From Dehalococcoidales bacterium (GTDB taxonomy: Bacteria; Chloroflexota; Dehalococcoidia; Dehalococcoidales; UBA2162): a DNA stretch of 32,666 nt. The stretch is taken from NCBI GenBank assembly GCA_030698765.1, contig JAUYMF010000043.1:1-32666 (forward strand). Reading direction: 5' to 3'. Position 1 is the stretch's first letter. Each line of letters starts with the position of its first letter. A model generated the notes under the pieces. It was not told the origin of the DNA. It made no database searches and saw nothing but the letters and a program-made list of their open reading frames with translations. This document shows, one piece after another, positions 17,270 to 32,266 of this stretch. A program made the translations under genes and the position numbers.

Positions 17270-19597
17270 ATGGAACAGAAAGAGCTAAATTTAGCAGGCC
17301 AATTAAAAGGATTGTGGCGATATAAGTGGACCGTCACTGTTATGGTATTGGTGGCGATAGTGATAGCCGGAGTTTATGCCATGACCAAACCTCCATTGTA
17401 CGAGGCTACGGCGACGGTAATGGTAGAAAGTGAACAGCCAAGCTTGTCATTAACGGCAGGACTTGGAATATCTAACCAGCAGGACGTCGGCAATCAAATC
17501 GAACTGATGAGAAGTCGTACCGTGCTTGAACGTGCAATTAGCCAGCTTGATCCGGAGAAAGTGTCAGACTCTCAGTATTTAGTTTCGGAAATAAATAAGC
17601 TGAGCCATGCTCTTACAATTCAACAAGTAAAAGGCACCAGCCTGCTTGCGGTTACAGTCTCGTCCTCCGACCCTTTGCTGGCTGAGAAACAGGCCAACTC
17701 GGTGGCTGAAGCCTACGTGTATGAAGCTAACAGGGCCAAGCTAGCAGCTATTGAGCAAGGACTTGAGAGAACCACAAGGCAGATAAAGGATCTGAACGAG
17801 AGTAACCTGGATATTTCTCTCAGCACCTCATCGACCCGGTTAGTTGAGCAGACAGAAGCGGCTCTATCGGCTGTTGAAGCGGTGGCTGCGCAAGTGAAAC
17901 AAATGCTGGCGAGGAAACCCGTAATCTCCTCGAGGGTGAACACGCTTTTACCCGATCAGGTAGCTGCTGCGCTCTCTGAAGCGCAGCAGCTTTCCGTCCT
18001 TACTGAGAAACTTCATTTCGGACCTGCTGAGATAGCTGCTATTGAGGCTCGCGCTCGCGCGCTCTCCATAAAGCTTGAGACCATAAATACGCAATTAACC
18101 GAGGCGAGGCGACTTGAACAGGACCCACAAGTTTACAAAATATTAATCGATGTCGAGGAATGGGTTCATGTGGCCATATCTGCCGAGGAAGCAGTTCTGG
18201 CACAGATAACAGCTTTGTCAGCAGCGCAAGCCATGTCATCTGCCGGAACAGAAAAGAGCAATCTGGTTACAGGTCTTGAGTATCGATTGGTTCAGCATTC
18301 CCGCCTCGTCATCTCCAGTTTGGAGACTGCTCATACGAAACTCAGCGAGGCGACCAACTTGAGAACTCAACAACCTGTATTGCTGAGTGCGCTGAATGAG
18401 GAATTGGCGTCTGCCCAGGTGACATTAGAGACGCTTTCACAGAAGTTGGTGCCTTCTGCTTCTGACCGAAGTATTCTCCTGAGTCTGAGGGAGATTTCTG
18501 AGATTGAAATCGGAGTTCGGGCGACCGCTAAGAAGCTGAGTGCACTGCTTGCCCGAACGGATCAGGTGCGCGCTGACATCTTCGACCCGGAACTTAATGA
18601 AGAGATGCTCAAGATGAGAAGCTTACTAAGCGCGGCTAGCGATGCGGTTTGGGATTTGCCTGATGTTATAGCCAGCATCGGCGAAGGAGGGGGAGGCAGG
18701 CTTGGCTATGCTGCACTGGACAGGCTAAGACAGGACCTGCAACTGACTCTATTGACCAACGATAGCAGTGCGATCAGAGTAGTGGACAAGGCGGTTGTCC
18801 GGTATGTAGACGCAGGCATGTTTGCCCGTTACAGGAGCGTCGTCCTGGCCGCCATCGCTGCTCTGCTCCTGGGAGTCATGATTGCCCTGTTGCTGCAACG
18901 TCTTGACCGTAGAGTTCGGGATGAACCGGAAATGTCCGATTACCTGGGTCTCCCGCTACTTGGTCGCATCTCGGCGACGATTTCGAATCCTCATTCCCCC
19001 TCAGTGCTGGAAAGTAAAGACCCTTATTATCTGGAAACCTTCCGAACTCTGAGGACAAATCTCGATATGGATTCCTGGCATGGGCGTGTTCTCCTTGTCA
19101 CCAGCCCGGCGCAAGGAGAGGGTAAGACAACCGTGGCTTCCAACCTGGCAAGGGTAGTGGCTTTGCAGGGTCGCCGGGTGCTGCTCATAGATGGCAGTTT
19201 GCGGAAACCCGACCTTGCTGAAAGCATGGGCCTGGTGGAAACGGCCGGTTTACCGGAAGTCTTCCAGAGCGACGATGAACTGCTGGGCTTGGTAAGCCGG
19301 GTAGATGGCGTCGATGTCATTGCTTCCAAAACCTTATCAGCGGGGTCAGCTGAAATACTTTCATCTCCTCAGATGCGCGCGCTTTTTGAAAAGGCGAGGC
19401 AGACTTATGACGTCGTGATTGTGGACAGCGCCCCCGTAGATGAAACTGCTGATACCAGAATCCTGGCCAGGAATGCGGATGAAGCGCTGATGGTTCTCCA
19501 ACCGGATGTCTCAATGATAGACCGGGCTAAAGAGGCCACGGTAGCTTTGAAGAATGCGGGCGTAAGGATAAATGGCTTCATCTTCAATAGACGATAG
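17270..19597 (+). CDS. Wzz-type polysaccharide co-polymerase fused to BY-kinase domain
   Basis: This is a 775-aa bitopic membrane protein. A cytoplasmic N-terminus is followed by a first helix (VTVMVLVAIVIAGVYAM, about 22-38) and a Wzz domain (LYEATATVMVES). A very long external region of about 450 residues, rich in Ala/Glu/Leu heptads, is probably coiled coil. The second helix lies at about 524-545. The C-terminal kinase carries Walker A SPAQGEGKTT (K619), Walker A' LLIDGSLRKPD (D641) and Walker B VVIVDSAP (D719). The C-terminus ends FIFNRR, without the Tyr cluster that normally autophosphorylates. It probably sets chain length and synthesis of the locus polysaccharide. AGGAGGT precedes the ATG. 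Confidence 0.9.
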   Translation: MEQKELNLAGQLKGLWRYKWTVTVMVLVAIVIAGVYAMTKPPLYEATATVMVESEQPSLSLTAGLGISNQQDVGNQIELMRSRTVLERAISQLDPEKVSDSQYLVSEINKLSHALTIQQVKGTSLLAVTVSSSDPLLAEKQANSVAEAYVYEANRAKLAAIEQGLERTTRQIKDLNESNLDISLSTSSTRLVEQTEAALSAVEAVAAQVKQMLARKPVISSRVNTLLPDQVAAALSEAQQLSVLTEKLHFGPAEIAAIEARARALSIKLETINTQLTEARRLEQDPQVYKILIDVEEWVHVAISAEEAVLAQITALSAAQAMSSAGTEKSNLVTGLEYRLVQHSRLVISSLETAHTKLSEATNLRTQQPVLLSALNEELASAQVTLETLSQKLVPSASDRSILLSLREISEIEIGVRATAKKLSALLARTDQVRADIFDPELNEEMLKMRSLLSAASDAVWDLPDVIASIGEGGGGRLGYAALDRLRQDLQLTLLTNDSSAIRVVDKAVVRYVDAGMFARYRSVVLAAIAALLLGVMIALLLQRLDRRVRDEPEMSDYLGLPLLGRISATISNPHSPSVLESKDPYYLETFRTLRTNLDMDSWHGRVLLVTSPAQGEGKTTVASNLARVVALQGRRVLLIDGSLRKPDLAESMGLVETAGLPEVFQSDDELLGLVSRVDGVDVIASKTLSAGSAEILSSPQMRALFEKARQTYDVVIVDSAPVDETADTRILARNADEALMVLQPDVSMIDRAKEATVALKNAGVRINGFIFNRR

Positions 19598-19630
19598 CCA
19601 TGGGAAGTAACAGGTTACTCTGAGGAATGT

Positions 19631-20710
19631 ATGACAAAATCAAGCATAAAACGGATCAGCTTTGGCCAGTTCGGCGAGAACCTGCGCCGGGAGCACGGGG
19701 AACACCGGAAACCTGTGAAGGGTAGCCTGGAACTGACGCTACGCTGCAACCTGAACTGTGTCCACTGTTACGGCCGTCTTCCGTTACAGGATAGGCAGGT
19801 AATGAATTGCGAACTCTCCCTTAAGGAGATCTGCTCTTTGCTGGAAGAAGCTGCTGAAGCAGGGTGTATGTGGCTATTGATAACCGGAGGCGAACCGCTT
19901 ATCCGCCCCGACTTTTTGGAAATATACACATACGCGAAGCTGAAAGGTTTCCTTATTACCCTGTTTACTAATGCTACTCTCCTCACCGACGAACTGGCTG
20001 ATTACCTCCAGGAATACTCTCCTTACCGGGTAGAAATATCGTTATACGGGACAACCAGCGAGACTCACGATAAGGTGACCCGGGTTCCTGGCTCCTTCCG
20101 CCGTTCAGTTGAAGGGGTCCACCGGTTACTGGAACGCGGAATACCACTTAATCTTAAGACAATGGCGATGACCATCAACCGTCATGAAATCCGTAATCTT
20201 CAGGACTTCGCGCAAAGTCTCGGAGTAAAATTCAGGTATGATCCTATAGTAAATGCAGCCTTTAATGGTTCCCGGGAGCCGGTTAATTTCAGATTGACAC
20301 CAGAAGAAGTAGTGGCACTGGACCTTTCCGATGACAAGCGGGTAGGAGCTTTTCAGGAAGTCTGTCAGAAATTCGGAGGTATTCCCGAGGTAGATACTAT
20401 TTTTGGCTGTGGAGCCGGTCTCTACAACTTTCATGTCGATCCTTATGGTCAGATGTCCATTTGCATGACTGCCCGTTGGCCTAGCTACGACCTGAGACAC
20501 GGCTCCTTGCAGGAGGGCTTCTATTCCTTCTTCCCCGAGCTAAGGTCCCGTAAACCTGAATCAGACTATCCTTGCGGTCGTTGTGAGCTACACTCCCTGT
20601 GTGGTAACTGTCCGGGCTCTGCTTATGCCGAATGTGGTGACCTGGAGGCTGTGGTCAATTATTATTGCCAGATAGCTCATCAAAGAGCGAAGGCATTTGG
20701 ATTGAAATAA
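19631..20710 (+). CDS. Radical SAM/SPASM peptide-modifying enzyme
   Basis: This is a 359-aa radical S-adenosylmethionine enzyme. The cluster motif CNLNCVHC (C39, C43, C46) binds the catalytic [4Fe-4S], and TGGEPLIRPDF is the SAM-binding GGE segment. The C-terminal SPASM domain has C260, C278, C315, C318, C324, C327, C335 and C346, enough for auxiliary iron-sulfur clusters. Enzymes of this architecture (PqqE, anaerobic sulfatase-maturing enzymes, sactisynthases) modify side chains of peptides or proteins. No RRE/PqqD domain is seen at its N-terminus. A short peptide gene begins 65 nt downstream with a strong ribosome-binding site, making it the likely substrate (inference). It starts 33 nt after the Wzz/kinase stop. 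Confidence 0.93.
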   Translation: MTKSSIKRISFGQFGENLRREHGEHRKPVKGSLELTLRCNLNCVHCYGRLPLQDRQVMNCELSLKEICSLLEEAAEAGCMWLLITGGEPLIRPDFLEIYTYAKLKGFLITLFTNATLLTDELADYLQEYSPYRVEISLYGTTSETHDKVTRVPGSFRRSVEGVHRLLERGIPLNLKTMAMTINRHEIRNLQDFAQSLGVKFRYDPIVNAAFNGSREPVNFRLTPEEVVALDLSDDKRVGAFQEVCQKFGGIPEVDTIFGCGAGLYNFHVDPYGQMSICMTARWPSYDLRHGSLQEGFYSFFPELRSRKPESDYPCGRCELHSLCGNCPGSAYAECGDLEAVVNYYCQIAHQRAKAFGLK

Positions 20711-20775
20711 TCATATGCGGAGGCTATACTAAAATGAGGGTACAAAAGCGAACAAATAAAAATAGGAGGGATAAT

Positions 20776-20967
20776 ATGGAAAGGAACAGGAAGCATTATC
20801 AGAAACCGGAAGTGACGCAAGTAAGCCTGGTGCCGGAAGAGGCTGTCCTCGAAGTCTGTAAGAATCACGAGGTTGATACCAATGATCCCGCACAGGGCGA
20901 CCCCTATCGTTGCAGCTGGCCAGCCGGGGTTGGAGGCGGGGTCTGCCGAGGCGTTTCCGGCTCCTGA
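20776..20967 (+). CDS. Precursor-like short peptide of a radical SAM cassette (putative RiPP)
   Basis: This 63-aa peptide has a hydrophilic leader-like N-terminus (YQKPEVTQVSLVPEEAVLEV, residues 8-27), then Cys28, an acidic stretch, and a Cys/Gly-rich end. The cysteines are at 28, 46 and 57; the tail runs CSWPAGVGGGVCRGVSGS and ends in Ser. The KPE-x-x-x-V-x-L-x-PEEAVL pattern resembles short peptides encoded next to radical SAM/SPASM genes. AGGAGGG (20764-20770) lies 5 nt before ATG 20776 and decides the start; an in-frame ATG at 20734 with a GGAGG 10 nt upstream would add 14 basic residues. It lies between the radical SAM and HprK-like genes. No exporter or protease is visible. Function and cleavage site are unknown. 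Confidence 0.75.
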   Translation: MERNRKHYQKPEVTQVSLVPEEAVLEVCKNHEVDTNDPAQGDPYRCSWPAGVGGGVCRGVSGS

Positions 20968-21087
20968 ATACCGTAACTGAACTCCATATATCAGAACAGG
21001 TTGAAAGACAGATGACTGACGTTTGTTTAACCTGCAGGTCTGAATGTAGAGTAAGTTTTCGGGTTACCGAAAGGAGAGAAAACGGCA

Positions 21088-21969
21088 ATGCTAAGAACAA
21101 CGCCTCTTGCTACTCAACGGCTGAACCTGTCTTTAGGCGGTATCATCTTCTCATTAGTCAGCAATTGTAGTCCTGATCTGACTCTCAGTTATAACCACGA
21201 AGCATTCGTAGTTTCTGGAGGTGAGCCGGACGTACTCTTACAAGCTGAATACGGAAGTGTCCCTGACCTGGAGTTTGAGGATGCCCTCTTTCAGACTAAT
21301 GGCGTATGGAGACTTTTCAAAAGCGGAGGCAAGCTGGTTTATTATTTCCATGCCTGGGAACTTGATGACACTCCGTATAAGATAGCTGTCATGGAACCTG
21401 ACTTTCAGGCTGGCACGATATATAGTCGGGCAACAGAGTCGAAGAAGGATAAATGCTTCAGCCCGCTTAACTACCCGCTGGATGAACTGCTGATAGCAGG
21501 CAGACTATCCAGAGGTAACGGGATATTGGTACACGCCTGCGGGGTAGAGTGCCGTGGGCGAGGATTGTTATTTCTCGGCACCTCTGGAGCAGGGAAGACG
21601 ACTTTATCAAGGTTGTGGGATGGCGAATCTGGAATTACTATTTTCAGTGATGATCGTATCATCGTTAGAGACATGGGTGATAGCTATCAGATGTATGGGA
21701 CTCCCTGGCATGGAGATGCCGAAATTGCTTCGCCACTGAGTGTCCCGCTGGAAAGCATATTCTTTCTCGTTCATGACCAAAAAAACCGGTTGACTCCAGT
21801 TCAGCCGGTTGATGCTGCTTCTCGTATCCTGGTTCGCTCTTTCCCCACCTTCTGGGATGCCGGCGGGATGGATTATACTCTGGGGCTCTGTGAACGGCTC
21901 AGCTCCAAGGTGCCTTGCTTTGAGCTAGGTTTCCTGCCCGACAAGCGTGTCATAGATTTATTGAGGTGA
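21088..21969 (+). CDS. HprK-like (HPr kinase-related) serine kinase
   Basis: This is a 293-aa protein whose C-terminal half has the HPr kinase/phosphatase fold. The P-loop is GTSGAGKTT (G164 to K170), followed by the FSDDR acidic motif (D188, D189) and GTPWHGDAE. The N-terminal half is not the usual HprK N-domain. It is a beta-rich segment typical of HprK-related proteins in exopolysaccharide and peptide-modification loci. A homologous kinase in the paeninodin lasso cluster phosphorylates the C-terminal Ser of its precursor; the peptide encoded just upstream also ends in Ser. The ATG has AAGGAGAG upstream. The stop overlaps the next gene by 4 nt (GTGA). An HPr protein target is unlikely, since no PTS gene is near. 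Confidence 0.85.
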   Translation: MLRTTPLATQRLNLSLGGIIFSLVSNCSPDLTLSYNHEAFVVSGGEPDVLLQAEYGSVPDLEFEDALFQTNGVWRLFKSGGKLVYYFHAWELDDTPYKIAVMEPDFQAGTIYSRATESKKDKCFSPLNYPLDELLIAGRLSRGNGILVHACGVECRGRGLLFLGTSGAGKTTLSRLWDGESGITIFSDDRIIVRDMGDSYQMYGTPWHGDAEIASPLSVPLESIFFLVHDQKNRLTPVQPVDAASRILVRSFPTFWDAGGMDYTLGLCERLSSKVPCFELGFLPDKRVIDLLR

Positions 21970-22328
21970 AACGAAGCGCCATAGTACTTATCTTGTGGAC
22001 ACTGATCCTTCTGGGGCTGTTACTGGCCCCGTTTAGTGACGCCCGGATACCAGCCGTTAACGGATTCAGGTTTGACAAAATTGCTCATTTCGGGCTGTTC
22101 TTCATCACCGGGGTGGTTACTGTCTATGGTGCGGGGTTCTCTCGTTTCCGGGACCGGCTTAGGCTCGGACTCATATTCGGCCTGCTGCTGGCTATGGGCA
22201 CTGAGGTTGCGCAGTTTTTCATTCCTCTCCGTCATGCGGATTTCTATGACCTCCTTGCGGATATAGCTGGCTTGAGCCTGGGACTGATATTTTCAGCGCT
22301 GTTTCACCGCAGGGCTAACGTTCAATAG
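21966..22328 (+). CDS. VanZ family membrane protein
   Basis: This is a 120-aa membrane protein with about four helices and the VanZ signature: FDKIAHFGLFF near the start, then GTEVAQFFIPLRHADFYDLLAD followed by a Gly-rich last helix. The GTG start overlaps the stop of the HprK-like gene (GTGA), so translation is coupled. VanZ-like proteins occur in teicoplanin resistance, in exopolysaccharide loci and near exosortases. Their biochemical role is unsettled. Here it may help handle a lipid-linked or membrane-bound product of the cassette (inference). The following 141 nt hold only a short CCTCC-CA-GGAGG palindrome and no gene. Confidence 0.88.
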   Translation: MKRSAIVLILWTLILLGLLLAPFSDARIPAVNGFRFDKIAHFGLFFITGVVTVYGAGFSRFRDRLRLGLIFGLLLAMGTEVAQFFIPLRHADFYDLLADIAGLSLGLIFSALFHRRANVQ

Positions 22329-22469
22329 GCTTCGCGGCTTTATTCCTTTATTTAGTTATCTTAAATTGCCTCCCAGGAGGTAACGCTCCCCGGGGTTGTT
22401 TCCGGTATCCGGTCTTGCCGCCTATTTTGGGGACAATCATGATGTTGTCTTTCAGTTCATGGTAAAGGA

Positions 22470-23330
22470 ATGCTTGTGACCGTCATTCAAGCTGTCATAC
22501 TTGGTATTGTCCAGGGTGTCACAGAGTTTGTCCCCATCTCAAGTTCGGCGCATCTCATTATTGTGCCCTGGTTGTTTCATTGGAACGAACCGGGTATAGC
22601 TTTTGATGTGGCGCTGCATCTGGGAACACTGGTAGCATTGCTCTGGTTTTTTCAGGCAGATTGGAGGAAGCTGGTTAGAGCTGGGTTTGCCAGTATTAAT
22701 GAGCGAAAGATAGGCGCTGATCCAGAACGGCGGCTGGCATGGTTGTTGATTATCGGCACTATTCCCGGCATCATCGTCGGTATGCTGGCTGAAAGCACAA
22801 TTGAAGAGTTGTTTCATCAGCCAGGTACGCCGCACTCTTCTCAAGCCATAATAATTATGGCGATTGTGATCGCCCTGCTGGGCGTCGTGTTGTTCGTGGC
22901 AGAATGGAAGGCCCGTCATATCAGAAATCTTTTCTCAATTCGCCTAAAGGATTCTGTCCTGATAGGGCTTGCCCAGGCATTGGCTATTTTCCCTGGCGTA
23001 TCCCGCTCGGGAAGCACCATTACCGCCGGCCTGGCGTTAGGACTACAGCGGGAAGTTGCAGCCCGCTATTCCTTTCTCCTGGCGGCACCGATCGTGGTAG
23101 GCGCGGGTGTCAAAAGCCTTTTCAGTATTTATGGTGAACTGAAAGCAGGGCTGATGGTGCAGGCAGAACTGGTCATGTTTGCGGCTGGTTTTATTGCCGC
23201 CGCTATCAGTGGCTACCTGTGCATCAAATTCCTGCTGCGTTACCTCCAGAAGAATTCTACAAACGTATTCGTATATTATCGCTGGCTACTTGCCGTGCTA
23301 ATTATCATTGTCGTACTGGTTCGGGGTTAA
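22470..23330 (+). CDS. uppP: Undecaprenyl-diphosphate phosphatase UppP (BacA family)
   Basis: This is a polytopic membrane enzyme that dephosphorylates undecaprenyl diphosphate to recycle the lipid carrier for peptidoglycan and surface polysaccharide; overproduction gives bacitracin resistance in other bacteria. Both family signatures are intact: GVTEFVPISSSAH with E19, and PGVSRSGST at 175-183 with the catalytic Arg. The 286-aa length and roughly eight helices are normal. ATG 22470 has GTAAAGG upstream. Its place here fits the demand for carrier lipid made by the flippase/Wzz system. Confidence 0.95.
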   Translation: MLVTVIQAVILGIVQGVTEFVPISSSAHLIIVPWLFHWNEPGIAFDVALHLGTLVALLWFFQADWRKLVRAGFASINERKIGADPERRLAWLLIIGTIPGIIVGMLAESTIEELFHQPGTPHSSQAIIIMAIVIALLGVVLFVAEWKARHIRNLFSIRLKDSVLIGLAQALAIFPGVSRSGSTITAGLALGLQREVAARYSFLLAAPIVVGAGVKSLFSIYGELKAGLMVQAELVMFAAGFIAAAISGYLCIKFLLRYLQKNSTNVFVYYRWLLAVLIIIVVLVRG

Positions 23331-23474
23331 AATAACGGTCTTGTCTACTTTCAGTTATTGCAGGTGGCGTAGAATGCTGTACTACTAGCTTAAACAAGAG
23401 ACTGGCAGGGATAATCTTCGCCGGGCCGCTGACTACTACGGCTATCCGAGGCGGGCACGGGTACGGAGGTAAAA

Positions 23475-24029
23475 ATGAGACCGCTACTTGTCATATTGCT
23501 GCTGATGGTCACATTCAGGCTGGGTGAGGCCTGGTACGAGTACAAGCTGGAACCAGAAGTTGTGCAAGTTGTGAAGGTAGTTACCGTGAAGGTGGAGAAG
23601 CCGGTTATCGTTGAGCACAACCGGGAGATAGTAACGCCGGTCTACATTGACAAGCCTGTTCTCATTGAGGACGCGGTTAGCAAGGAAGCACCGATACCTC
23701 AGAGATTCCGTGAATTTGAAAGTGTTGAAGAACTGGAAGCATGGTTATATTTCGTTGACCTGATGCCGGTGAAGCTCATAGCCAGTGAGGGTATATTGTC
23801 AATAGACAGGCTGGACTGTGACGAGTGGGCGATAAGCTTGCAGTTGAACGCTCTGGAGCAAGGATTGCTGGTGTCAACGCAGCTTATTGAAAACGGGAAT
23901 ATCTTTGGGACTAATGTTGGTGACTTCACAGACCCCCACCTGGGTAACCTGACTATTATCGGGAATGAGATTTATTACATAGGATCTATTCCACCTTACG
24001 ATGTTGTCAAGGTGGCGGAGAGGGATTGA
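23475..24029 (+). CDS. Small secreted or anchored protein, possibly transglutaminase-like
   Basis: I do not recognise this 184-aa protein with certainty. It begins with a hydrophobic signal or anchor (MRPLLVILLLMVTFRLGEAW). A beta/charged segment with repeated valine-rich pairs follows (VVKVVTVKVEKPVIV). From about residue 110, DCDEWAISLQLNALEQG and, about 35 residues later, DPHLGNLTIIGNEIYYI resemble the Cys and His regions of small transglutaminase-like or papain-like proteins (weak, by eye). CGGAGG a few nt before the ATG is a strong ribosome-binding site. The preceding 144 nt contain an open stretch encoding about 24 residues without a start codon, ending just before this ATG, possibly a remnant. 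Confidence 0.6.
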   Translation: MRPLLVILLLMVTFRLGEAWYEYKLEPEVVQVVKVVTVKVEKPVIVEHNREIVTPVYIDKPVLIEDAVSKEAPIPQRFREFESVEELEAWLYFVDLMPVKLIASEGILSIDRLDCDEWAISLQLNALEQGLLVSTQLIENGNIFGTNVGDFTDPHLGNLTIIGNEIYYIGSIPPYDVVKVAERD

Positions 24030-24090
24030 GGATAAGCGGTATCCTTAACACGGCCGGGTTACCAAAAACTTGAGGAGTCTGCAAAAAAGA

Positions 24091-25020
24091 ATGAATAATA
24101 AAAACGTGGTTGTCACCGGTGGCGCCGGATTTATCGGCTCGCACCTTGCCGAGACTTTGGCAAGACAGGATTATGAAGTCATTGTTCTTGATGACCTGTC
24201 TACAGGCAAGCTCAATAACCTGGAGCAATGTCACCATGAAGTCGAGTTTGTTGAAGGCAGCATTACTGATGCTGTTCTTCTCTCGAAACTATTCCAGGGT
24301 GTTGACTATGTTCTCCATCTGGCGGCTATCCCCAGCGTACCGCGAAGCATAGATACCCCCAGAGCCAGCCATGACGTCAACGTAACCGGAACACTGAATG
24401 TACTCCTGGCCGCCACACAAAATAAGGTCAAGAAAGTAGTATACGCATCCTCATCGTCTGTTTACGGTGATACTCCCACACTGCCCAAGAACGAAGAGAT
24501 GACACCCCGTCCCTTGTCTCCGTATGCGGCAGGTAAGCTTGCCGCCGAGAGCTACTGCCGGGTCTTCAGAGAGGTTTACCAGTTGCCTACTATTTGTCTC
24601 AGGTACTTTAATGTCTATGGTCCGCGCCAGGACCCGAACTCGCAATACGCTGCGGCAATCCCCAAGTTCATCAGTATGGCCCGGGAAGGGAAGCCTCCTG
24701 TCATTTTCGGAGATGGTGAACAGACCAGAGATTTCACTTTTGTCAGGGATGTTGTCAATGCCAATATTATGGCGATGCGAAGCGACGTTTGTGGAGTATT
24801 CAATGTCAGCCGGGGAGAGAGCATAACCATAAACCGGTTGGTGGAACTTATCATGGAGCAAATGGGCGAAAAGACATCACCCGTTCATCAGGAGCCAAGG
24901 AAGGGGGACATCAAACACAGCCTGGCGGATATTTCTAAAGCCAGAGCTTTTGGCTATGAACCAAAACATGATTTGCAGGATGGATTAGCGGAAACGCTAA
25001 AATGGTTTAATGGCAGATAG
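24091..25020 (+). CDS. UDP-glucose 4-epimerase-like NAD-dependent epimerase
   Basis: This is a 309-aa extended SDR. VVVTGGAGFIGSHL binds NAD, and LDDLSTG is the usual ribose-binding segment. YAAGK (Y145, K149) is the catalytic pair. RYFNVYGPRQDP and IFGDGEQTRDFTFV are typical of UDP-GlcNAc or UDP-glucose 4-epimerases. ATG 24091 is preferred to the TTG at 24070; GAGGAG at 24072-24077 is a little far from it. It is the last gene of the polysaccharide region and is followed by a strong terminator. It is clearly distinct from the two other epimerases of the window, so at least three nucleotide-sugar steps are encoded. Exact substrate unknown. Confidence 0.92.
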   Translation: MNNKNVVVTGGAGFIGSHLAETLARQDYEVIVLDDLSTGKLNNLEQCHHEVEFVEGSITDAVLLSKLFQGVDYVLHLAAIPSVPRSIDTPRASHDVNVTGTLNVLLAATQNKVKKVVYASSSSVYGDTPTLPKNEEMTPRPLSPYAAGKLAAESYCRVFREVYQLPTICLRYFNVYGPRQDPNSQYAAAIPKFISMAREGKPPVIFGDGEQTRDFTFVRDVVNANIMAMRSDVCGVFNVSRGESITINRLVELIMEQMGEKTSPVHQEPRKGDIKHSLADISKARAFGYEPKHDLQDGLAETLKWFNGR

Positions 25021-26468: not shown

Positions 26469-27977
26469 ATGGCAAATCTAAGCAGGCGGGATTTTCTAAA
26501 GTATTCAATCGGGGGCATGGCCGTGCTGGTCATCGGTAGCAGACTATCCTGGCTGGCAAATAATCCGGCCTACGCGGCAACACAGACCGTAAGCCTGCGC
26601 ATCGGCGATGCCATCAAGCAGATGCACACGCATAATGCCCTGAACAATGCCGAGTGCTATTTCTGGATGTACAAAAGCGTCGAGCCGGACTTACCGCATG
26701 ATTGCCCCGGCCCGGTTATTATCGCAACCAAGGGAGATACCATAAACATCTCGGTCGAAAATAGCCTGGATGAACCTCATGCCTTCGCCATACCGGACAT
26801 CGGTTTTACGAGCGGTGCAATCCAGCCAGGCGACACTTTCAGCGGTGTCATCGACCTTGCTGCCGCACCGGCGGGGGCCTACCTGTATTACGATAACCTG
26901 AACGAGCCGGTTAACCGGATAATGGGTCTGCATGGCGCCCTTATCGTCATGCCCGCGGCGCCCTCAGGAGCCCGCTGGACTCCGTACGATACCGTTACCC
27001 CGGCCGTCCAGCAGTTGTTCGACGATTTCGGCTCCACTGACCATTTCCCCGGACTGGCCTGGGAGGAGGGGGACAGTACATCCTGGGCGCTAAATGACGC
27101 CTTTCCTGAGCATGGCGTGTTGAACCAACCCAACTGTCCTCCCTTCCGCCAGTACGTCTGGTTAGCTCACCAGGCCAGCCCGAAGCTGTTCATGGAGGTT
27201 GGGAACTCTGCTCCCGGAGACCCTATCCGCAATCCGACAAACTTCATGAATGCTTTTCTGAGGGACCCGTTTACACCGCATGCCTTCCATGCCGATAATC
27301 CCGGCGGCAACCGCATTGCCCAGTACTTTACCTTCAGCGGGCAGTCGGGGTTCTTTGCCCACGATAGTCCGGTCATTACCCCGATGGGCCGCGTGGGCGA
27401 ACCATGCGTCGTGCATATTCTGAACGCCGGGCTGTGGACCCACTCCATGCACCTCCACGCCAACCATTTTTATGTGACCAGTGTCAACGGTGTGGTCAGG
27501 GATAATGTTTTTTCCCTGGATACCTTCGAGGTGGGGCCGATGGACAGGGTTGACTATGTTCTGCCTTTCAACAGACCGCCGGATGTACCCAATGTCCGGG
27601 GCATCGGCCGGCCGGACGAGCCGCTGGTCAGCCCGAGCAGCGGACAGCCGGTATGGCCGCCCATTGAAGAGATGAACGCTTTTCTGCCGGCGGCGGGAAC
27701 AACGGCTCCCGGCAGCGGTGTGGAGCTTGGGCAGCGGCTGTCACCCCTGTGTTTCCCCATGCACGATCATTCCGAACCTTCCCAGACTTCCCAGGGGGGC
27801 AATTACAATACCGGCTTGATCTCAGGCATGTATTTCACCGGCGACCGGAATACGCCCGGCCATTTCGACTTCGAGATGGAAGAGGACTTCCACATGATGT
27901 TCAAGAATGTCCGTGGCGTCACGGTCATCCCTCCAGCCACCCTGCCGGCAGCGCCGCCGCATAATGAGCTTCCCTGA
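26469..27977 (+). CDS. Tat-exported multicopper oxidase-like protein (subunit A)
   Basis: This is a 502-aa protein with a twin-arginine signal (SRRDFLK, then a hydrophobic stretch and AYA cleavage site near residue 36). Two cupredoxin domains are recognisable. The first (about 40-165) has the fold pattern (GDTINISVENSLDEPHAF; PAGAYLYYD; MGLHGALIV) but lacks the paired HxH copper ligands. The second (about 290-470) has HSMHLHANHF (H325, H328, H330: the HxxHxH motif) and CFPMHDH (C428, H432, H434), with a possible axial Met454. It therefore carries only half of the trinuclear-site ligands. The next gene, 31 nt on, carries the other half. AAGGAGGG precedes the ATG. Substrate unknown. Confidence 0.88.
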   Translation: MANLSRRDFLKYSIGGMAVLVIGSRLSWLANNPAYAATQTVSLRIGDAIKQMHTHNALNNAECYFWMYKSVEPDLPHDCPGPVIIATKGDTINISVENSLDEPHAFAIPDIGFTSGAIQPGDTFSGVIDLAAAPAGAYLYYDNLNEPVNRIMGLHGALIVMPAAPSGARWTPYDTVTPAVQQLFDDFGSTDHFPGLAWEEGDSTSWALNDAFPEHGVLNQPNCPPFRQYVWLAHQASPKLFMEVGNSAPGDPIRNPTNFMNAFLRDPFTPHAFHADNPGGNRIAQYFTFSGQSGFFAHDSPVITPMGRVGEPCVVHILNAGLWTHSMHLHANHFYVTSVNGVVRDNVFSLDTFEVGPMDRVDYVLPFNRPPDVPNVRGIGRPDEPLVSPSSGQPVWPPIEEMNAFLPAAGTTAPGSGVELGQRLSPLCFPMHDHSEPSQTSQGGNYNTGLISGMYFTGDRNTPGHFDFEMEEDFHMMFKNVRGVTVIPPATLPAAPPHNELP

Positions 27978-28008
27978 TTGCCCTTAAAGGTTAGAAAGGA
28001 GAGATAAG

Positions 28009-29700
28009 ATGTCATTTACAGATCGGGTTTTTGATGATATTCCCCGCCAGTCAGTCGCTGGCATGGAAGGCATGTTCACCAAAATGTTCGACCCGCCTGC
28101 GGAGAGCCCACCTACGCCGGACCTGCTGGCGCCGACTAATCCCGTACCGGAGGTCATGGCCGCTGCCCCACCCTCGATAGGAGGACCTTTTCAGAATCCG
28201 CCGACCACGCCCCACACCGTGGAGCGGCGCTTGAGGCATAGTGATGACATCACTGTCTGGGACGGACAGAGACTCCGTTTCTTCATGTTCAGCGACCCCG
28301 ACAATGATGCCACCAATGGCGGCACCTATCCGGCGGCCACCATCCGGGTGCCCCGGGGGGTTATCTTTCACGGGCATACTCAAGCCACCGGGGGACCGCA
28401 CACCATCCACTGGCACGGCATGGAGCCGACCCCGATAAATGACGGGGTGGGTCACTGCTCCATGGAGCTGGGTGATTATACCTACCAGTGGCAGCCCAAC
28501 CACATCGGCACCTATTTCTACCACTGCCATCGCAACACGGTGCAGCACTTCGAGTTCGGGCTATGGGGGGCGCTCCTCATCGTGCCTCCGGATGCCTATT
28601 TTGCCACGCAACGGAATCCGGCCATTCCCATCGGCGCGGGACGGGATGGGAAATTCCGCACTGAGGCTAACCTCACCAATTTCCCGCAGTTTCCCGGCTT
28701 CAACTCTAATCCCCTTGATACCCCTGACCCTGACCCGGACACTGCCGACCCGTGGCCGTTTACTGTCGACCCGCACGCCATGACTGTCCCTTACGATGTG
28801 GAGGTCCTGTGGGCATTCGACGACCGCGACTCCGTTTGGGCAGCTCTCGCCACTGACCACAGGCAGACCTATCCCGTACAGGGACCCAATCCGGGAGTGG
28901 ACGATAATTTCCACACGCACGGCGTTGCCGGCACCAGCGCCGCACCGGGTGATTTCTTCGCCTTTAACGACTTCAATTCGGATTACTGGTTCGTCACCGG
29001 CGTCTCGGTGCCCGGCCTCAAAGGAGGCACCGGGACAATTGCTCCCGGCATAGTTATCCCTCCGGCGCTTAATAGCGGTGTCACCGGGACACAGGTCTCC
29101 ATCAATGCCCAGGTGGGACAGACCATACTCATCCGGGCCATTAATGGTGCCTATGATGTCTCTCAAATAAGATTACCGATGGATGTCCTGGTTATCGGAG
29201 CGGACGGGAGGGCGCTGGGCGTGCCGCCTTTCACGCACTATAGCCAGCCGTTTGTGCTTCCGGCCAACACTCCCATTCGTTTGAGCGTCGCCCGCCGTGC
29301 CGACGCCATTTTCCGGCCCCTGTTCCCGTTTAGCGGCTTCGCTGAGGTGGAGTTCTTCAACCCCCGCAGCGAAGCACCAACTTCAGAGGCGAACAGGCGA
29401 TTCACCGCCCGTATCCCGATCAATATTGCTCCGACGGCCGGGGTTCGCGTCATATCCGGCTCTATAATTGATAGCCAGAACGGACAACCTATTTCCGGCG
29501 CACAGGTGAACCTGACCGGACCGACAAGCCAGATGGTGTTCACTGATGCCTCGGGCAACTACAGCTTTACCGGTCTGCCTGACGGCGTCTATACGGTTAT
29601 TCCTTCAGGCGCTGGTTTCAGCTTTTCGCCGCGGGAAAGGCAGATAGTCGTAAGCGGCGAAAATATTAGCAGCCAGTTCTTCAGAGGGAGAAGAATGTAA
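28009..29700 (+). CDS. Multicopper oxidase-like protein with carboxypeptidase-regulatory-like tail (subunit B)
   Basis: This 563-aa protein lacks any signal peptide (N-terminus MSFTDRVFDDIPRQSVAGME). The first cupredoxin domain (about 75-195) has HTIHWHG (H131, H134, H136) and YHCHRNTVQH (H172, C173, H174, H180), that is, a type-1 site plus two HxH pairs. A second cupredoxin-like domain (about 340-460) has none. The last 85 residues are a carboxypeptidase-regulatory-like beta domain (ISGSIIDSQNGQPISGAQVN; DASGNYSFTGLPDGVYTV). It follows subunit A by 31 nt with GAAAGGAGAG before the ATG. With no export signal and complementary ligands, it may travel through Tat bound to subunit A (inference). 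Alternatively it is a separate cytoplasmic oxidase. Confidence 0.88.
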   Translation: MSFTDRVFDDIPRQSVAGMEGMFTKMFDPPAESPPTPDLLAPTNPVPEVMAAAPPSIGGPFQNPPTTPHTVERRLRHSDDITVWDGQRLRFFMFSDPDNDATNGGTYPAATIRVPRGVIFHGHTQATGGPHTIHWHGMEPTPINDGVGHCSMELGDYTYQWQPNHIGTYFYHCHRNTVQHFEFGLWGALLIVPPDAYFATQRNPAIPIGAGRDGKFRTEANLTNFPQFPGFNSNPLDTPDPDPDTADPWPFTVDPHAMTVPYDVEVLWAFDDRDSVWAALATDHRQTYPVQGPNPGVDDNFHTHGVAGTSAAPGDFFAFNDFNSDYWFVTGVSVPGLKGGTGTIAPGIVIPPALNSGVTGTQVSINAQVGQTILIRAINGAYDVSQIRLPMDVLVIGADGRALGVPPFTHYSQPFVLPANTPIRLSVARRADAIFRPLFPFSGFAEVEFFNPRSEAPTSEANRRFTARIPINIAPTAGVRVISGSIIDSQNGQPISGAQVNLTGPTSQMVFTDASGNYSFTGLPDGVYTVIPSGAGFSFSPRERQIVVSGENISSQFFRGRRM

Positions 29701-29749: not shown

Positions 29750-32266
29750 ATGGACTTAAAAAAGAGGCTATTGTGTATCATCGCACTCTCCCTGACAGTG
29801 GCGTTGATACTTCCGGCCGCCGTCCTGGCGGTGCCGAAGGTCAGTCAGCCACAGTTGGTCACTGGCCATCAGGTTACCGCCGGGGAACTCGTCTACCAGG
29901 CTAACTGCGCTAGTTGCCACGGCGCCAGCGCTGAAGGAGACTTCGGCCCGCCTATAGCCGGCCAGAGCGCGGCGGAGATAACCGCAGCGCTGGGCAGCGT
30001 TGCAGCTATGTCTGGCCTTGATCTCACGGCGCAGGAGATAAACGCGGTGGCTAACTTTCTCCAGGCCACGGCAGCACCGCGGATAATCCTGACACAGCCT
30101 GCCTCCGGACAGTTCAATGCCGGGGCGGCAAACAACATCGGTATTTCCGTCTCCTCTCCGGCTTCGCCGGTTAACTCGGCCGAGTTCCAGGCCTTCTTCG
30201 ATGACCCCGAGGGCACATTTGCCGCCAGGGAAATCACCGCCCAGGCATCTATCTCCGTACCGGCGCCGAGGGCGGGAGCTGGCGCCGTCGCTACCACTAT
30301 CAGTCTTCCTGCCGGGCTTCCGTCGGCTTCAGTGGTCTCAGTTACTATCTCCGGGACAGTTACCGCCGTGAACGCCGACACCGGTGAGTGGCAAATCGGC
30401 ACGCCGCCAGTCCTCGTCTACGAAAGCGACAGCACCGCTTTCCTGGGCATTCCCGTCCCCCAGGCAGGTGATGCGGTGAGAATCGAGGCGCTCCGGACGC
30501 TGGCGACCGGACCACTCGTGGCCAAAGAGATCACCCGCCTGGCAGTAGGGGCTCTTCCCGCTTCAGCCGTCTTAATGCAGCTATCCATCCTCTTCAATGG
30601 CACTGTTCGGTCTATCCAGCCACCTACTCAGTCTGCCGGTATCAAACTCGGGGGAGAAACCTGGACCATCTCCGGTGTACCCTTCCGCACCGATGACGTT
30701 AACTCTCCGGCCGTTATCGGGCCTGACCTGGGACAGGACTCCCTGGTGACGGTGAAGTTCCGGACATTGCCTGTCGGGAGTACCTCCAATATTGCGCTAC
30801 AAATCGCGAGCCAGGTGTCAGACGTGATACCGGAACCCCTGCACACGAACCCACAGCATAACACGGAGATCCCCCCGCCGAATCTTCCTGCCGGAACAAT
30901 ACGGTTGTTTGTTATCGAGGGAGTGGTCTCCGAGAAGAACGCCGGCGGGGAATGGATAATAGGCAATCAGCCAATCACAGTTTATGAAAGTGCCGGTACC
31001 GTCATCAGCGCTGCGGTGCCGGTGGAGGGTGATGAAGTTCTGGTGATAGCCAGGCGGACCGTGGAAGCTGGACCACTTGTTGCCGATAGTATCAACCGCC
31101 AGACAGCCGGTCCGCTGACAGTTGGTCCGGCTGTTGTTGAAAGGACACTTATTTTTAATGGTACGGTTGAGACGACCGCTAGCGATGCCTGGACAATCGG
31201 CGGCGCTAGTTTCGTGATCAACGATTCAGTATCGCCGACCGCTATCGGTACGGGCTTATCTGCGGGCAGCGCTGTAACCGTCGAATTCAAAACTAATCTG
31301 CCAGCCACGCCGGATGAAGACCTCTGGGCTCCTTTTGACTTTAATCCCGCTATCAGCACGGGAAGCGCCACCTTGACTCCGCCGTCAGTTACTGTCAGCA
31401 GACCTGGCTTTGTCTTCCTGCGCGCCGAGAACGACGATCAGCAAGTTACGACTATAGCCGTTCCTGCCACTTTGCTGACGGCGGCACCCCCACCCCCTCC
31501 ACCCGCTACTGATGGGGGCGGGGGCGGGGGCGGAGGAGGAGGGCCTGTGACCCTGACTTTCAGCCTGAGCGGACTTAGCGGTACGCTGACAGTCAACTCT
31601 GCCGGTACGGTACAGAGCACGGCCAAACTGACCGGCACCGATGGTAAAGTGATATTCGATATCCCGGCAGGCACCACTTTGAAGACCGCCTCAGGTAATC
31701 CAATCACCTCCATAACTATGGCGGTGCCGGATACCATCCCTGCCGCGCCGTCAGGTAAAACCATAGTCTTCGCCAGGAATTTCGGTCCTGATGGCGCCAC
31801 CTTTGACCCACCGATTACCCTGTCTCTTACGTATGAAGAATCGACGTTGCCGGCCGGAGTGCAGGAGAATGATCTGGTTATTGCTTTCTGGGATGGTGCG
31901 GAGTGGGTGATACTGGAGAGCACCGTGAACGCTGAGGCTGATACGGTATCAGCACAGGTAAGCCACTTCACCATGTTCGGCATCCTGGCGCAACTACCCG
32001 CATCAACCCCGACGCCTACGCCGACAACACCTGCGACTCCAACTACGCCAACTACGCCGACAACACCACCCGTAACGCCGGAACCGCCGATAACAACGCC
32101 TACTCCGGTAACACCATCTCCTTCTGTGCCGTCATCCGAGCCAGCGCCTACTCCCGAGGCGTCACCCGCCGGGCCTAACTGGGGGCTGATTATCGGGATA
32201 ACTGCTGCTATAGTGGTTGTTGCCGGGCTGGGGGTGTTTATGGTGAGAAGGAGGGTAAGCAAGTAG
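29750..32266 (+). CDS. Membrane-anchored monohaem cytochrome c with long extracytoplasmic region
   Basis: This is an 838-aa protein. A signal peptide (CIIALSLTVALILPAAVLA) is followed by a class I cytochrome c domain at about 38-105, with CASCH (C53, C56, H57) and likely distal Met87. Next come two copies of a DUF5666-like beta module of about 170 residues (GEWQIGTPPVLVYES and GEWIIGNQPITVYES mark equivalent strands). A Pro/Gly-rich linker, a ZU5/PASTA-like beta domain (about 600-750), a Thr/Pro stalk and one C-terminal helix with RRRVSK complete it. It lies 49 nt after subunit B. The haem probably takes electrons to or from the oxidase at the cell surface (inference). Confidence 0.88.
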   Translation: MDLKKRLLCIIALSLTVALILPAAVLAVPKVSQPQLVTGHQVTAGELVYQANCASCHGASAEGDFGPPIAGQSAAEITAALGSVAAMSGLDLTAQEINAVANFLQATAAPRIILTQPASGQFNAGAANNIGISVSSPASPVNSAEFQAFFDDPEGTFAAREITAQASISVPAPRAGAGAVATTISLPAGLPSASVVSVTISGTVTAVNADTGEWQIGTPPVLVYESDSTAFLGIPVPQAGDAVRIEALRTLATGPLVAKEITRLAVGALPASAVLMQLSILFNGTVRSIQPPTQSAGIKLGGETWTISGVPFRTDDVNSPAVIGPDLGQDSLVTVKFRTLPVGSTSNIALQIASQVSDVIPEPLHTNPQHNTEIPPPNLPAGTIRLFVIEGVVSEKNAGGEWIIGNQPITVYESAGTVISAAVPVEGDEVLVIARRTVEAGPLVADSINRQTAGPLTVGPAVVERTLIFNGTVETTASDAWTIGGASFVINDSVSPTAIGTGLSAGSAVTVEFKTNLPATPDEDLWAPFDFNPAISTGSATLTPPSVTVSRPGFVFLRAENDDQQVTTIAVPATLLTAAPPPPPPATDGGGGGGGGGGPVTLTFSLSGLSGTLTVNSAGTVQSTAKLTGTDGKVIFDIPAGTTLKTASGNPITSITMAVPDTIPAAPSGKTIVFARNFGPDGATFDPPITLSLTYEESTLPAGVQENDLVIAFWDGAEWVILESTVNAEADTVSAQVSHFTMFGILAQLPASTPTPTPTTPATPTTPTTPTTPPVTPEPPITTPTPVTPSPSVPSSEPAPTPEASPAGPNWGLIIGITAAIVVVAGLGVFMVRRRVSK
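31498..31545. repeat. Pro/Gly-coding low-complexity tract in the cytochrome gene
   Basis: C-rich sequence coding for a proline run passes directly into GGGGGCGGGGGCGGGGGC-type sequence coding for about ten glycines. It separates the DUF5666-like part from the C-terminal beta domain. It resembles the linker of the DUF4838 protein at 14441, but is interrupted by C and A bases, so it should slip less. Confidence 0.85.
32007..32160 (+). repeat. Thr/Pro-coding short repeats forming the surface stalk
   Basis: Degenerate ACGCCN/ACACCN/ACTCCN triplet pairs encode repeated Thr-Pro (TPTPTTPATPTTP) that change to Pro/Ser/Glu before the C-terminal helix. This is the wall-spanning stalk of the cytochrome protein and a likely site of copy-number variation. 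Confidence 0.8.

Follow-up and report, generated by a model that had tools for sequence, protein, structure and literature searches.

Two-domain multicopper oxidases are trimers in which the residues of the copper cluster are contributed by two protomers, and they are homotrimeric where tested; three- and six-domain oxidases are monomers (PMC3192119, PMC13151041). In the type-C two-domain oxidases (3g5w from Nitrosomonas europaea and 2zwn from a metagenome), each subunit consists of two cupredoxin domains with type-1 copper in domain 1 (D1) and HxH pairs in D1 and domain 2 (D2), the cluster lies between domains of neighbouring subunits, and each chain of the homotrimer carries both half-sites (PMC3192119, PMC13151041). 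MnxG (9bxa) and ceruloplasmin are rings of cupredoxin domains built from one six-domain chain. The adjacent genes described here, A and B, share with the type-C oxidases the two-domain organization, the type-1 copper in domain 1, the HxH pairs in D1 and D2 and, as proposed below, a cluster between neighbouring subunits, but only one half-site is present per chain. A and B very likely make up one heteromeric multicopper oxidase in which both subunits are indispensable and the trinuclear site is shared. No heterodimeric, heteromeric or split multicopper oxidase was found in the literature searched.

The window, i.e. the whole stretch of DNA analysed (32,666 nucleotides), corresponds to contig C43 in an assembly of 1.94 Mb; Table 1 gives the positions of the relevant features. 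The two genes are separated by 31 nt on the same strand, and a Shine-Dalgarno-like AAGGAG is located ahead of each. D1 of A is ligand-free and its D2 carries half of the ligands of the trinuclear site (two HxH pairs), and D1 of B contains the type-1 copper site and the remaining trinuclear half-site, followed by a ligand-free D2; on sequence inspection no copper-ligand motif was detected in A D1 or B D2. The H131-H136 motif of B aligns with HTIHWHG of 3g5w and 2zwn, and the C-terminal CarboxypepD_reg domain of B is missing in a short type of A-B pair. A preliminary description of the locus had reported these two open reading frames with A H325/H328/H330 and C428/H432/H434 and B H131/H134/H136 and H172/C173/H174/H180, and had considered the N-terminal cupredoxin of A and the second domain of B blank; both statements held.

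Table 1. Positions of genes, domains and copper-ligand motifs in the window
Feature	Position	Strand	Description
Gene A	26469..27977	+	502 aa; predicted Tat-exported two-domain cupredoxin protein; Pfam PF07732 (D1), PF07731 (D2)
Tat (twin-arginine) signal region of A, SRRDFLK ... AYAA	26469..26579	+	Pfam TAT_signal E 0.007, below cutoff
A H328-x-H330	27450..27458	+	HxH pair of trinuclear cluster (half-site); 79/79 aligned homologues; corresponds to D2 HxH in type-C oxidases
A H432-x-H434 (MHDH)	27762..27770	+	Second trinuclear-cluster HxH pair; 80/80 homologues
Gene B	28009..29700	+	563 aa; two-domain cupredoxin protein without signal peptide; Pfam PF07732
B H131-TI-H134-W-H136	28399..28416	+	H131 presumed type-1 ligand; H134/H136 trinuclear pair; 80/80 homologues
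B H172-C173-H174 ... H180	28522..28548	+	H172/H174 trinuclear pair; C173/H180 type-1 copper; 80/80 homologues
B C-terminal CarboxypepD_reg domain (Ig-like)	29452..29664	+	PF13620 E 1e-13; PF13715 residues 482-552
Gene C	29750..32266	+	One CxxCH cytochrome c domain, DUF5666, C-terminal hydrophobic segment

Across 80 A-B pairs, H131, H134, H136, H172, C173, H174 and H180 of B were invariant, and in A H328 and H330 were kept in 79/79 aligned sequences and H432 and H434 in 80/80. A H325 was His in just 61 of the 80 (Asp in 10) and A C428 was Cys in just 49, and because both vary in this way neither is an essential ligand. The claim of the preliminary description that two HxH pairs each from A and B complete one trinuclear site is thus supported after H325 and C428 are dropped as unconserved, leaving A H328/H330/H432/H434 and B H134/H136/H172/H174 as the conserved cluster ligands. 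The residue five positions after H180, B L185, likely occupies the axial position; 73 pairs have Leu there and the other 7 have Met. Leu at this position accompanies high-potential type-1 copper in other oxidases. The near-invariant positions of A and B include all conserved ligands together with many neighbouring residues. Since the partition of ligands is maintained across families differing at approximately 54% of positions on average, it far exceeds chance expectation.

The criterion for the multicopper oxidase superfamily (four HxH pairs and a type-1 Cys-His site) is satisfied by A and B jointly and by neither singly. Regarding the type-C criteria, type-1 copper in domain 1 only is satisfied (C173/H180 in B D1; HDH without type-1 Cys in A D2), but both half-sites per protomer is not, HxH ligands being absent from A D1 and B D2. 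The criterion for three-domain laccase/CueO/CotA (type-1 Cys in the HCH of the last domain, three domains per chain) fails at the HDH of A D2, and that for ceruloplasmin/MnxG (six cupredoxin domains per chain) fails with two chains of two domains each.

The host genome contains three A-B pairs, on C43, on C161 (61% and 58% identical to the C43 pair) and, as a short type, on C187, all in the order A then B, and additional pairs are present in other genomes of the host's order. Searching 84,980 species genomes with a B profile gave 78 loci, and from these and loci found earlier 80 pairs were assembled, covering approximately 11 phyla, one of them archaeal. In every pair the two genes share a strand and A immediately precedes B, most intergenic gaps measuring tens of nt. 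Among the hosts are Chloroflexota, Geobacter relatives and other Desulfobacterota, Nitrospirota, Planctomycetota including Brocadia, Bacillota, Myxococcota, Armatimonadota, Poribacteria, Skermanella, Thermoleophilia and the archaeon Methanoperedens. Thirteen records of a plasmid collection also matched, mostly partially.

Orphan A or B genes, named in the preliminary description as refuting evidence, were essentially absent. B without A was found at contig ends (L096, L140) or as a fragment (L173), and in 24 genomes full-length A and B loci corresponded one to one, the few unmatched loci being partial or on short contigs. A sample of 141 genomes from the order of the Geobacter relatives yielded 15 A loci, all with B (12 with B at the search threshold and three adjoining a divergent B). 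One of these 15 loci is a single-gene homologue fusing both halves, which the preliminary description had suggested searching for: an 854-aa gene with A followed by B in frame (L189:4046-6610). The distance matrices of A and B correlated with r = 0.907 over 70 pairs, a value reached in 0 of 2000 permutations and partly reflecting shared host phylogeny; within the long type the correlation was 0.83.

For structure prediction the C43 pair was modelled with AlphaFold2 as one chain of 955 aa consisting of A, a short linker and B (translation continued past the stop of A and across a single four-base step between the genes), using 73 homologues in an alignment whose A and B rows were confirmed to lie on the matching protein, and a pLDDT of 88 and a pTM of 0.92 were obtained. 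For L146, a diverged pair of the short type in a Nitrospirota genome (742 aa, stops read through), pLDDT was 90 and pTM 0.91. Linkage in a single chain biases towards contact between A and B; pTM nevertheless reports confidence in their relative placement. In Foldseek searches against the PDB, MnxG was the top match and ceruloplasmin ranked high for both linked models, although each of these is one six-domain chain and the four domains of the pair are divided between two proteins. The short pair gave TMq of 0.54-0.55 on ceruloplasmin/MnxG versus 0.33 for the best lone two-domain oxidase, and the A and B halves therefore superpose simultaneously. Because the same model matched the four-domain factor VIII heavy chain with a TMt of 0.57, A and B are probably arranged as consecutive domain pairs with A D2 contacting B D1, a placement predicted by superposition of the models and without ligand distances. 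Ring oxidases carry the trinuclear cluster at the equivalent kind of interface. The convergence of the HxH pairs at one interface, which the preliminary description had proposed as a check, is consequently answered only in part: the models are confident and superposition sets A D2 against B D1, without a measure of convergence within 5 A. The closest solved two-domain structures, by sequence and by fold, were 3g5w and 2zwn.

In the proposed mechanism, B would provide the type-1 copper site (H131, C173, H180 and probably L185 as axial residue) and four cluster histidines, A would provide the remaining four, and the trinuclear cluster would assemble where B D1 meets A D2, in the manner of adjacent subunits of a homotrimeric type-C oxidase. 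The type-1 copper would accept single electrons from a donor and pass them to the cluster, at which O2 would be reduced to water. That A and B form one enzyme, as the preliminary description had inferred, is supported as the best reading by what the analysis showed directly (ligand partition, pairing, co-evolution, a natural fusion and confident joint models) and is not biochemically shown; metal content, O2 chemistry, export route and electron donor are all inferred. O2 as acceptor is an assumption, since many hosts are anaerobes. The host genome encodes a haem-copper oxidase, so that use of O2 is plausible; cytochrome bd was not found in the host genome. The haem-copper oxidase subunit I gene is located at G000:C90:5054-6349 in an assembly with 4.9% estimated contamination, and the order is otherwise known for small anaerobes.

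A Tat-like motif was present in 70 of 73 A proteins; of 73 B proteins, only one had a hydrophobic N-terminus. Because only A carries an export signal, B is likely exported with A, and on sequence evidence alone we infer that it probably leaves the cell as part of a folded Tat cargo, most likely crossing the membrane bound to A.

As to origin, the pair would descend from a duplicated type-C two-domain oxidase, the ligands of the first domain having then been lost in A and those of the second in B. Profile comparison aligned A with B across both domains (E 1e-7), with HCHRN of B opposite YDNLN of A, and a relic of the lost site is seen in A D1, where YYDNLNEPVNRIMG of A faces YHCHRNTVQHFEFG of B. 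In a maximum-likelihood tree, A and B each formed a strongly supported clade on a long branch.

Several other readings of the pair were weighed. B alone might carry electrons on its type-1 copper, with A binding copper or assisting assembly and without any trinuclear cluster; the type-1 site of B is complete, and the four histidines of A D2 are potential copper ligands. The eight cluster histidines are, however, as invariant as the type-1 ligands, the joint models put the half-sites on facing domains (by superposition), and the pairing is strict and includes a natural fusion, so that this reading is very improbable. The partner of each half-site might instead be a different protein encoded elsewhere, the adjacency of A and B being incidental; with three pairs in the host genome, cross-pairing is conceivable. 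Against this stand the correlation of the distance matrices, an adjacency that is invariant even in genomes with a single pair, and the A-B fusion, and the idea is highly improbable. A larger assembly, in which three two-domain units (A2B, AB2, or A and B with a third blank unit) close a six-domain ring with a single active site, is a variant of the shared-site explanation and not an alternative to it. An AB heterodimer, with four domains, would leave a gap in such a ring, type-C oxidases are trimeric and ceruloplasmin/MnxG six-domain, the models fit four consecutive domains of these, and a ligand-free two-domain unit occurs in the third gene of a separate split family (L069, L070, L071). The third gene beside A-B in the window, however, encodes a cytochrome/DUF5666 protein without a cupredoxin match, and on balance we lean slightly against the ring.

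Other identities were rejected. A frameshift-broken gene is not compatible with a split kept in 80 pairs, whose halves are complete two-domain units each with its own ribosome-binding site, nor is a four-domain protein cut in two compatible with the homology of A to B over both domains. Copper nitrite reductase, of which NirK structures appeared in the match lists, was dismissed on account of the four HxH pairs for a trinuclear site, and CopA/CueO and ascorbate oxidase because the NCBIfam models copper_res_A, CueO and ascorbase all scored far below cutoff. Geobacter OmpB/OmpC, also considered, were linked to A-B by no title or abstract in the literature searched, a literature check without sequence comparison.

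Besides the obligate heteromer proposed for A and B, further divided oxidases were found. At L035 (genome G321), of two adjacent open reading frames (379 and 380 aa) one retains the D1 ligands and the other the D2 ligands, with one leftover HEH in the B-like copy as the sole exception to the division of HxH ligands. Since this pair nests among complete two-domain oxidases of its family (tree support 100/98), it is likely a young and independent split of a type-C two-domain oxidase. A four-domain single chain in Chloroflexota genome G185 (L073:572-2866) has ligands in its N- and C-terminal domains and blank middle domains; as in A-B, one half (here N-terminal) retains the D1 ligands and the other (C-terminal) the D2 ligands, but it differs in being one chain, in its B-A order and in an extra C-terminal cupredoxin. 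The tree places its two halves together (99/91), for which reason the chain looks like an independent duplication. Four further Chloroflexota loci (L069-L072) divide the HxH ligands over two adjacent genes as A and B do, but in reverse order, B-like then A-like, with a signal on each gene and in two separate tree clades. In three of the four (L069, L070 and L071), a third gene opens with a two-domain unit without any ligands, which hints at a three-part ring. Because the deep branching among the split groups is weakly supported, the number of independent splits besides A/B is kept at two at least and probably three.

A bolder reading, to which we incline only narrowly, is that homotrimeric two-domain oxidases repeatedly became obligate heteromers through duplication and complementary loss of half-sites. 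Its cases would be the ancient A/B family of many phyla, the young L035, the four-domain fusion L073 and the reverse-order L069-L071, in which a fully blank third subunit would complete a heterotrimeric ring that holds a single cluster.

In the neighbourhood of the pair, gene C is by inference a candidate electron partner, and a DUF5666-type neighbour recurs at Chloroflexota A-B loci. Di-haem CCP/MauG-like proteins lie near A-B pairs in 21 loci, some of them duplicates of each other (e.g. L113, L119, L133, L163), and may act as electron partner or maturation factor. A large oxidase-like protein adjoins A-B in four loci (L106:9839-14914, L124:9829-14274, L128:9668-15091 and L142), the hosts being Methanoperedens, Bacillota and an uncultured bacterium. 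Elsewhere in the window, positions 17270-25020 contain an exopolysaccharide-type cluster (genes for a tyrosine autokinase, a radical SAM protein, a VanZ-like protein, UppP and a sugar epimerase). As for function, we favour, only tentatively, an exported enzyme with high-potential copper that oxidizes metals, phenols or a c-type cytochrome.

A widespread family whose cluster requires two different gene products is new relative to the literature searched. What is annotated as a multicopper oxidase may in many cases be a half-enzyme, which would seem inactive if expressed singly. Through this family, many lineages of known anaerobes (including Geobacter relatives, Methanoperedens, Brocadia and Dehalococcoides relatives) are credited with a candidate high-potential copper oxidase. 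The family also offers a natural system for the transition from homomer to obligate heteromer, with independent replicates and a natural fusion. If the bolder reading is true, the repeated splitting would show, in nature and with replicates, how complexity ratchets at a metal site.
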